Assembly: GCF_026586675.1 (NCBI RefSeq)
Contig: NZ_JAODIX010000089.1
Coordinates: 1-37,648 of the forward strand
From: Halorubrum yunnanense
GTDB lineage: Archaea > Halobacteriota > Halobacteria > Halobacteriales > Haloferacaceae
DNA: 37,648 nt
Reading direction: 5' to 3'
Both the position numbers and the translations under genes were made by a program. The notes under the pieces were generated by a model, which worked only from the letters and a program-made list of their open reading frames with translations, did not search any database and had not been told where the DNA came from. Below are positions 26,798 through 37,648 of this stretch, in pieces. How positions within the stretch are numbered: the first letter of the stretch is position 1; each line of letters begins with the position of its first letter.

Positions 26798-27049
26798 ACC
26801 ACATGATCTATGGTGAGTGAGAAAGTAACTGTATCGCGCTTGTGCGGTTCGAACACCATATTGTGGGCGCTAAAATCGCATCCAAGATTGAGGAAAAATA
26901 ACTATACCGACAGATCACTCTCTCCCGTAGTTCAACCTCGTCTTGTTCCAAATCTGCGCTATGTGCTCAGGACGACTCAAAGAATATATCACTAATTGAG
27001 GATTTTAATAGAGCCGACGAGTGGGATACTACGATAATTCGAATCAAAA

Positions 27050-35818: not shown

Positions 35819-36061
35819 ATTAGACAGTTGGGTGCTCGTGCTGAACGATGAACATAAAACAGTACAAGTTGTTGTTTGCAGTTAAAATATGTCTGAATTA
35901 GTAGTTGGAGAGATCCTGCGTATTGACCGCCGAGGATTCTACTAACTCAGAGGAGTGTTCCGATAGGCGTGCGAGATACAGAGGGTACAGTCAGCACGGG
36001 AACAATGTTATTTTCACCATCTAAGCCCTGAATCAACCGAGAGAATGTGCTTGTGTGCTGC

Positions 36062-36304
36062 TCAATCGGCTATCCAATTTTGTCTTACTTGACCGTCAAC
36101 AAGGACTCTGCCATCACTATGTACAGTTACATTATGATTTGGGAGTTCAAATTCGAGGTTCCATGTACTGTTACTGTGCCTTGCGAGCTGCTCTACGGCG
36201 GCTAGGTCGATATAATCGGCAACAACAACGTCTAGCTCGCTCGGGTCAACGCTCTTGTGCTCAGCGATTGATCTGATGAGGATTGAGGTTAACGCCTCGT
36301 ACAT
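36062..36304 (-). CDS. HalOD1 output-domain protein
   Basis: An 80-residue protein from ATG 36304 (MYEALTSILIRSIAEHKSVD). The pattern IAEHKSVDPSELD, YIDLAAVEQLA, then a C-terminal beta hairpin HNVTVHSDGRVLVDG fits the haloarchaeal output domain HalOD1, which occurs alone or behind signalling receivers. Function is unknown, presumably signalling or regulatory. It is monocistronic, in an AT-rich area. An upstream start at 36358 is less likely. Confidence 0.75.
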   Translation of the reverse strand: MYEALTSILIRSIAEHKSVDPSELDVVVADYIDLAAVEQLARHSNSTWNLEFELPNHNVTVHSDGRVLVDGQVRQNWIAD

Positions 36305-36383
36305 ACTACGTTTCACATGTAGGACCCAATTAAATATAAATGAAACTATAGGTCGCACAGTTACCCGGATAGTAACGACATGT

Positions 36384-36458
36384 GGACTGTACTAGGCGGT
36401 CTGTGAGTACTCTGTACTGAGCGATCCGCGGTCCCTCTGTACTGACCAATCACTCCCT
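36384..36458. repeat. Three iteron-like direct repeats, 25-bp period
   Basis: The heptamer CTGTACT recurs at 36387, 36412 and 36437, exactly 25 bp apart. Flanking bases are partly conserved (copies 2 and 3 share CTCTGTACTGA; all three continue toward a GTC/ATC triplet). Exact helical-scale spacing suggests a protein-binding array such as iterons of a replication or partition site, or operators for the downstream AbrB-like/recombinase operon. No replication initiator gene is visible. Related TTGTAC words occur near 36478 and 36523. Confidence 0.5.
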
Positions 36459-36627
36459 CACGAAGATCGGCCTCGGTTTGTACCACATTCGCGCGCTCTA
36501 TGTAGCACGGACTTCGTGTCAATTGTACAGGGTTACAGCAGAGTCTTTTATCACATCTGGGTAGGCAGGCGTACAGGAAACGGGGGTTTTCTGAACACAA
36601 AGATTAGAACTAAGTTTAGGACTATTC

Positions 36628-36637
36628 ATAGGCCTAT
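36628..36637. promoter_or_regulatory. Perfect 10-bp palindrome before AbrB-like gene
   Basis: ATAGGCCTAT lies 6 nt before the ATG at 36644, and GTTTAGG (about 27 nt upstream of the ATG) is a possible TATA element. The location between TATA and start suits an autoregulatory operator for the small AbrB-like protein or a recombinase binding site. Confidence 0.4.
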
Positions 36638-36643
36638 ACAACG

Positions 36644-36796
36644 ATGGCGAAAACGCGAGTCAGTCAGGGGGCGAACGGGCAGTACAAAGTGACGGTGCCG
36701 AAGGGGCTCGCGGAGGCGATGGATCTTAACGGGAAGCGTCTAGACTGGAAGGTCAAATCAGGAAGCTCACTAGAGGTGACAGTGGTCGATGAGTAA
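36644..36796 (+). CDS. AbrB/SpoVT-like small DNA-binding protein
   Basis: A 50-residue protein starting at ATG 36644. It reads MAKTRVSQGANGQYKVTVPK, then GLAEAMDLNGKRLDWKVKSG and SSLEVTVVDE. The pattern strand-YKVTVPKGLAEAMDL-strand is the swapped-hairpin AbrB fold used by archaeal repressors and antitoxins. Its stop overlaps the recombinase start by 8 nt, so the two are translationally coupled. It probably represses the pair or assists recombination. Such AbrB-recombinase pairs are seen on haloarchaeal mobile elements. A palindrome lies just upstream. Confidence 0.75.
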   Translation: MAKTRVSQGANGQYKVTVPKGLAEAMDLNGKRLDWKVKSGSSLEVTVVDE

Positions 36797-37469
36797 AGCT
36801 CTCGCGTGGATTCGGAAGTCGAAGGGCGACGAGTCCGACATCGGCCTCAAAGAGCAGCGAGAGCTCGTCCGAACACTAGCGAACGACGTCGCCGACGAAG
36901 TAGAGGTCCTTGACCTCGGTATCCACACTGGCTTCTCGACGATGACCCGTGACGATCCCGCGGGCCTCCTCGATCAGAACGAGAGCGTCCAGGAGCGCGT
37001 TAACGAGCTACAGGCTGGCCAGTACTCACATCTGGTCGCATTGGACGATCGCCGGATATGCCGGGATGAATACTTCTCGGTGATTCAGTACGCAGCGACA
37101 CAGGGTGACGCCGAGATCGTCTACGTCGGCGACGTGAACGAGGACGATCTCACGTTCGATCTGAAGCGGCGTATCGAGCGGGACACGAAAGAAGAGGAGA
37201 TCGAGAAGTCACAGCGGGCGATCGAGCGTCGGAAGGAACACGGCTACGACCACGGGAGACCACGGTTCGGGATGACCTACGACGCGGACGGTCACTACCA
37301 GGTGCCGGGCGAGGACTTCGACACAGTACTAGAGATCTTCCAGCTCGACAACGCGGGAGACAGTCGACGGGAGATCGCTGACGCTGTCGGTGTCCCCACG
37401 AGTACGGTTCAGAACGTGCTTGACCGGCGCGAGTGGTACGCCGAACGCGGGAAAATGACTAATACGTGA
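36789..37469 (+). CDS. Serine recombinase (resolvase/invertase family)
   Basis: A 226-residue serine recombinase. The N-terminal catalytic domain begins ALAWIRKSKGDESD, with the nucleophile Ser11, followed by LKEQRELVRTLA, LVALDDRRICRDEY (catalytic arginines) and AEIVYVGDVNEDD. A long charged helix (about 125-155) and a C-terminal helix-turn-helix (SRREIADAVGVPTSTVQNVLDRREWY) give DNA binding. It probably integrates, excises or resolves the mobile segment that carries it. No att-like duplication could be identified within the window apart from the terminal repeat. ATG 36789 lies inside the AbrB-like gene. Confidence 0.85.
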   Translation: MSKALAWIRKSKGDESDIGLKEQRELVRTLANDVADEVEVLDLGIHTGFSTMTRDDPAGLLDQNESVQERVNELQAGQYSHLVALDDRRICRDEYFSVIQYAATQGDAEIVYVGDVNEDDLTFDLKRRIERDTKEEEIEKSQRAIERRKEHGYDHGRPRFGMTYDADGHYQVPGEDFDTVLEIFQLDNAGDSRREIADAVGVPTSTVQNVLDRREWYAERGKMTNT

Positions 37470-37523: not shown

Positions 37524-37589
37524 GTGACCAAACAAGGGCTAGATTCTGACGAAACAGATGCTCTACTTGATGTGACACTGCCTTGTTGA
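37524..37589 (+). pseudogene. Possible 5' gene fragment cut by the right IS edge
   Basis: From GTG 37524 the frame reads MTKQGLDSDETDALLDVTL and then enters the terminal repeat, ending Pro-Cys-stop exactly as the truncated xseB does at the left edge. The acidic composition is haloarchaeal, but the fragment is too short to identify, and the start codon is uncertain. Confidence 0.3.
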
Positions 37590-37647
37590 ATGCAAGACTG
37601 CGTCGGGGTAGGGTCGATAACTCACGGTTTCACGGTGTCAGAGACTG
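37579..37647. repeat. Right copy of window-terminal inverted repeat (probable IS edge)
   Basis: It is the reverse complement of positions 1-69 with one mismatch. The element begins at about 37580-37581 with CCTTGTTGAATGCAAG and continues beyond the window. See the left copy. Confidence 0.8.
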
Positions 37648-37648
37648 G

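Follow-up and report, generated by a model that had tools for sequence, protein, structure and literature searches.

In a stretch of DNA of 37,648 nucleotides from Halorubrum yunnanense, a gene for a small AbrB-like protein and a serine recombinase gene lie behind three putative operator boxes and a G-run dyad, and comparison of homologous loci makes it reasonably probable that this locus is a compact, autoregulated and mobile serine-recombinase module of the Halobacteria. The stretch as a whole, referred to here as the window, is an entire contig and forms part of a 3.17-Mb genome. The locus is close to the right end of the contig, so that little sequence lies 3' of the recombinase gene (Table 1). 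The last bases of the window (37570-37648) possibly begin an insertion sequence present in many copies, with an end of the TTGTTGAAT type; the assembly would then have broken off there for that reason. The original prediction for this DNA had described three CTGTACT repeats at an exact spacing of 25 bp, a perfect palindrome 6 nt from the AbrB-like start and two overlapping genes, and each of these is found: the repeats begin at 36387, 36412 and 36437 of the forward strand; the palindrome ATAGGCCTAT, at 36628-36637, is separated by 6 nt from the ATG at 36644, has no second occurrence in the window and appeared in none of 100 shuffles; and the AbrB-like reading frame overlaps that of the recombinase by 8 nt.

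Table 1. Features of the recombinase locus and of the repeat on its left, with positions in the window.
Feature	Position	Strand	Evidence
Three CTGTACT heads, 25-bp period	36387..36443	+	Head likewise doubled at 25 bp in 14 of 50 distinct sites
Copy of dispersed mosaic repeat (head, middle, 31-bp core, tail)	36437..36549	+	nhmmer model 1-118, 7e-23; alignment; tail toward pair
Degenerate 31-bp imperfect palindrome, CGTGC-N21-GCACG type	36479..36509	+	Sequence; repeat segments stop or start around core
Homology block common to Halorubrum copies	36568..37449	+	Alignment of copies
G-run dyad GTACAGGAAACGGGGGTTTTCTGAAC, 26 bp; left edge of block and proposed crossover site	36571..36596	+
Putative operator box 1, TTAGAACTAA	36604..36613	+
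Putative operator box 2, TTAGGACTAT	36616..36625	+
Putative operator box 3, ATAGGCCTAT (the palindrome of the original prediction)	36628..36637	+
AbrB/MazE-like protein, 50 aa	36644..36796	+	Subthreshold profiles; 17 aligned partners; predicted fold order
Serine recombinase, 226 aa, C-terminal helix-turn-helix	36789..37469	+	Invariant residues; relatives' Pfam Resolvase matches; fold matches; dN/dS

The product of the first gene is called AbrB-like only, since its profile scores fall below the curated cut-offs (Pfam MazE, 15.8 bits against 24.7; NCBIfam AbrB, 14.7 against 28.3). A sequence search of the PDB gave no match for it. The protein is conserved in 17 aligned partners, and its model, built from the single sequence (pLDDT 78), has the order E E H E E; strand-strand-helix-strand-strand is the order that defines the AbrB fold. 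The palindrome before its start codon is the last of three 10-bp boxes of the TTAGNNCTAA type that follow each other with a period of 12 bp (36604, 36616 and 36628) and span -40 to -7 of the first start codon. Such a triple, with the same period and its first box at -40 to -42, is present in 16 of 19 regions upstream of AbrB-like starts, and none of 400 mononucleotide shuffles reached the score of the triple in the window. Support for the boxes is weaker in distant relatives (the fraction of shuffles reaching the score is 0.14 for L013 and 0.04 for L041), and the period-12 triple was not found upstream in L020, L021 and L109, the AbrB-like start of L109 having been placed by hand and being possibly wrong. 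The promoter of a leaderless haloarchaeal start is expected in the region that the boxes cover, so that repression by the encoded protein would be the natural reading. The three boxes are likely an AbrB operator, and the AbrB-like protein is proposed to act as an autorepressor or accessory factor: as a dimer, it would bind the boxes over the promoter region and repress the operon.

The coupling of the two genes is widely conserved: in 25 of 28 loci the AbrB-like reading frame ends inside the recombinase gene or exactly where it starts, L024 (corrected by re-analysis) and L027 (by homology with L026) being counted among the 25. In L019 and L032 other small reading frames occupy this position, and L023 has lost its left part. 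The recombinase of the window has no Pfam Resolvase match up to an E-value of 10, and the profile is above cut-off in four of its relatives (L020, L109, L107 and L097). Residues R9, S11, R89 and R92 are invariant in 22 recombinase sequences, and we equate their positions with those of Arg8, Ser10, Arg68 and Arg71, the catalytic residues in gamma-delta resolvase. Helix-turn-helix matches fall in the C-terminal part, at residues 182-213, and the PDB sequence search returned for the recombinase a weak match of this helix-turn-helix region only. The structural model is weak (pLDDT 62); its top Foldseek matches, all with TM-scores of at most 0.5, are a serine integrase complex, a serine recombinase-DNA complex (2r0q), PhiC31 integrase, Tn3 resolvase and an IS607-like TnpA. 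The protein, named 'recombinase family protein' by NCBI, is assigned to the serine recombinases on the strength of its relatives' Resolvase profile, the catalytic residues and the fold. Values of dN/dS between 0.07 and 0.14 in 15 pairs, obtained with an experimental Biopython module, indicate purifying selection, and the serine recombinase is probably active.

A three-gene variant in the DL31 plasmid phalar01 (L107:3058-4262) has a close AbrB-like gene, an extra 132-aa reading frame and a recombinase that is ~28% identical, which suggests that the recombinase has been swapped behind a kept operator. In L026-L028 and L031 a conserved reading frame of ~90-110 aa lies 3' of the recombinase gene and moves with it; L026 and L028 are 93% identical over 1556 bp.

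The limits of the locus can be drawn by comparing its copies. Seven Halorubrum copies align over ~870-900 bp and have mostly unrelated flanks. The block in common starts a few bases from GGCGTNCAG at -222 and ends near the stop codon; its start corresponds to the left arm of the dyad, which reads GTACAGGAAACGGGGGTTTTCTGAAC in the window. The original suggestion that the pair might be the mobilising unit of the whole segment does not fit these limits, as the homology ends ~0.88 kb after it starts. The window and L039 have ~80 bp more in common on the left, and L039 and L040 are 97% identical over 1063 bp and unrelated beyond. The dyad is also the block edge in L020/L021/L024 and in L026/L027. 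The edge falls 29 bp outside the dyad in L014/L016 and ~70 bp outside it in L026/L028, no dyad is present at the block edge of L015/L043, and L016/L017 and L027/L031 are each the same locus throughout, with the whole upstream region in common. The arms of the dyad differ between families but match each other within a locus (0.78, against 0.34 between loci), a difference reached in none of 20000 permutations over 10 loci. As the dyads had been picked for arm pairing, they were also compared with control windows: 15 of 20 upstream regions, eight of the 20 being near relatives, exceed the ~95% level of the controls, and five do not. Across the genus, a scan for the dyad gave 19 matches in 15 of 52 genomes and none in the control, and most of these 15 genomes have a single dyad; the match in L176, with two mismatches, looks like chance.

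On the right, the Halorubrum block stops where the coding sequence stops, and no clear second dyad was seen there. A block made of a promoter and its operon would look bounded too if the genes alone were conserved. The locus could be a conserved promoter and bicistronic pair spread by gene transfer or homologous recombination, in which the dyad would be a regulator binding site instead of a crossover site; the end of the block near the stop codon agrees with this, and the left edge would be plausible as the outer limit of a promoter region. We nevertheless regard this explanation as improbable, for the dyad also joins units that have neither gene, and one flanking sequence, F1, is joined at the dyad to either side of the unit. 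The units in question are those of L162, L168 and L178, in which the dyad is followed by a conserved unit of ~125 bp that ends at the 31-bp core. L162 has, ahead of its dyad and small unit, the left flank that is also found before the dyad in the window and in L039. F1 lies on the right-hand side of the unit in L020 and L184; in L021 it stands on the left in inverted orientation, and in L182 it is located apart from the unit. An inverted copy of the dyad marks the right edge in the Natrinema loci L020 and L023, and half a dyad lies directly 3' of the stop codon in L182 and L184. The changes of side of F1 and the inverted and half dyads are the traces expected if half sites were exchanged at the dyad. 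Since foreign flanks and small non-autonomous units join at the same dyad, it is proposed as the crossover site of the recombinase. The enzyme would bind the dyad arms and cut in the G-run centre, and half sites would be exchanged with another dyad, by which dyad-bearing DNA could be moved, inverted or resolved; the action at the dyad may accordingly amount to transposition, inversion or resolution. A search for the empty site with the joined flanks of five loci (eight were prepared) gave no cross-join match past a few bases.

The closest named relatives of the pair are in Halorubrum species, and relatives occur in 86 of 391 genomes of the class, many of the matches covering the C-terminal part only. 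Thirteen plasmid records, from Halobacterium, DL31, Halobaculum, Natrinema and others, carry relatives, and many copies are on large contigs of chromosome size. No relative was found in IMG/VR (searched for close relatives only) or in phage records, which gives no sign of a viral origin, and no tRNA that might serve as a target lies within the window. This distribution bears on a second explanation, in which the pair would be a plasmid- or island-borne resolvase or invertase. The dyad, placed upstream of the operon that encodes the enzyme, would be a site of the res or inversion type and serve to resolve multimers or invert segments, and the unit as such would not transpose. The plasmid records, the prevalence of a single dyad per genome, the inverted dyads of the two Natrinema loci and the position of F1 on the other side in L021 all speak for it, as does the placing of a site upstream of a resolvase gene, a known Tn3 layout according to the available part of the source (PMC7157771). 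The many copies on chromosome-size contigs, the mostly different surroundings of the seven Halorubrum copies and the presence of the same dyad in small non-autonomous units argue against it, and we judge it a possible but rather unlikely account.

One part of the original prediction that finds no support concerns the 25-bp array, which had been taken to supply iterons to the pair. The array itself is confirmed: two CTGTACT pairs 25 bp apart occur without mismatch in the window, dinucleotide shuffles average 0.08 pairs with up to 2 mismatches tolerated, and in the whole host genome the spacing is found only here (two overlapping matches; reversed control, 0). Copies 2 and 3 are alike past the 7 bp (CTGTACTGASCRATC). 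The extended head CTGTACTGASCGATC, a 15-mer, is present in 32 of 59 genomes, of which 30 belong to the host genus Halorubrum, at 1-6 per genome (reversed control, 0), in varied surroundings and often next to a related middle and tail of ~100 bp. A second head lies exactly 25 bp away at 14 of 50 distinct head sites and no other offset in the tested range reaches two sites, so that the period is a property of the repeat family. Of 33 recombinase loci, a few of them gene fragments, only three (those of the window, L039 and L020) carry a head in the 500 bp upstream. On these grounds the array is assigned to a dispersed mosaic repeat, one copy of which adjoins the recombinase module and begins with these heads, and is not counted among the working parts of the module. 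If the locus were instead a replicon's iteron or partition module, in which the AbrB-like protein bound the CTGTACT repeats, the 25-bp period and the upstream position would be accounted for; yet the array is absent beside nearly all homologous pairs and occurs genus-wide away from them, and no replication or partition gene was seen beside it, so that this explanation is very hard to credit. The array was likewise rejected as an end of the unit in the window, as L162 and L178 end their small unit at the 31-bp core without a head, which makes the head a separate module. Within the wider proposal of a self-regulated mobility or partition module, mobility and self-regulation agree with the operator-like boxes, the probably active recombinase, the compact block and its mostly unrelated flanks; no ParA/ParB-like gene was seen adjoining that would speak for partition. 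Homologous pairs lacking both the array and the palindrome had been expected to count against the proposal; the outcome is divided, since most homologous pairs are without the array and most retain the palindromic boxes.

The mosaic repeat is dispersed and has sharp ends. The 90 distinct hits include 28 that span the full length, 16 with the left side alone and 29 with the right side alone; most of the partial hits take in the 31-bp core. When the stretch from dyad to head of L168 was used as query, six copies, including the query's own place, covered the unit from dyad to core; five of the six end at query positions 127-131, and the query's own place continues to the head. Some 37 further matches (counted manually) are without this unit, starting at 107-138 and ending at 175-183 of the query. 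The right half of the core, with at most one mismatch, occurs 43 times in the host genome against 15 in the reversed control, and several left and right halves occur there in combination. Repeat modules thus appear to be exchanged at the core. A regular-expression tally of left against right halves left 22 of 34 sites with an unclassified half, and breakpoint counts were used instead.

The tail of the repeat is usually turned toward recombinase modules of this kind: for repeat matches within 1.2 kb of a recombinase start, the tail points toward the gene in 15 of 17 cases, not all of them from independent loci, the exceptions being L038 and a weak second match left of the unit in the window. 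Some units carry the repeat on the right, reversed (L036, L037 and L004/L005), and L168 is bounded by the dyad on one end and the repeat on the other; it was for these units that the array had been weighed as an end of the unit in the window. By profile search, another full copy was detected at 26902-27022 (+) in the window, with no recombinase adjoining. A second dispersed family, also genus-wide, is present at 35974-36046 (-) and has the 31-bp core in common with the first. Between two oppositely oriented right halves of the core (35968-35981 and 36496-36509) lies a HalOD1-domain gene (36062-36358, -; Pfam E-value 4.8e-11), as a cassette might.

The host genome has two copies of a different, canonical serine recombinase unit (L004/L005 and L097/L098), 92.5% identical over 1061 bp and with unrelated flanks; one copy has an in-frame stop, and the dispersed repeat forms the right end of the unit. 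L100/L101, which match pHLAC01 of Halorubrum lacusprofundi, form an inverted duplication of 3482 bp with 99.97% identity and a related recombinase in each copy.

A wider picture can be sketched, which we offer as speculative and rather unlikely. A site-specific system would shuffle the accessory DNA of haloarchaea, using the G-run dyad and the 31-bp CGTGC-N21-GCACG core as its two palindromic sites. Serine recombinases under AbrB-like control would exchange small modules at the centres of the sites, among them recombinase units, non-autonomous units, 25-bp-repeat heads and possibly individual genes like the HalOD1 gene, in a way that to some extent recalls an archaeal cassette system.

Tn3 resolvase with its res site, and Sin, resemble the locus in having an N-terminal catalytic domain, a C-terminal helix-turn-helix and a dyad site upstream of their own operon; here, in contrast, an AbrB-like partner comes first and overlaps the recombinase gene, one G-run dyad is seen, and the block is compact and has no separate transposase gene. 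Tn3 transposons also carry toxin-antitoxin pairs, one with an AbrB/MazE antitoxin, beside res and the resolvase gene (PMC7157771); as far as the available part of that source goes, they have in common with the locus an AbrB-fold gene next to a resolvase and its site, and differ in that here there is no toxin gene and the AbrB-like gene overlaps the recombinase gene. The IS607 family likewise places a serine recombinase in a short mobile unit, in line with the Foldseek match to an IS607-like TnpA. Its domain order is inverted, with the DNA-binding domain N-terminal (PMC6188088; PMC4058570, in the parts available), whereas that domain is C-terminal here. For the 25-bp heads, a parallel is provided by a MITE of Porphyromonas gingivalis that contains a minisatellite (PMC4596501): in the accessible portion of that source, short tandem repeats lie inside a dispersed repeat, while the haloarchaeal repeat shows no clear terminal inverted repeats and its modules appear to be swapped around an internal 31-bp palindrome. 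No description of the AbrB-like/recombinase pair was found in the titles and abstract openings of the literature searched.

If this account holds, the locus would define a family of mobile recombination modules in archaea that are very small and carry their own AbrB-like regulator. It would further supply a candidate for the enzyme behind the patchwork of mosaic repeats in the accessory DNA of Halorubrum, and its 26-bp site would be a defined candidate for a haloarchaeal recombination tool.
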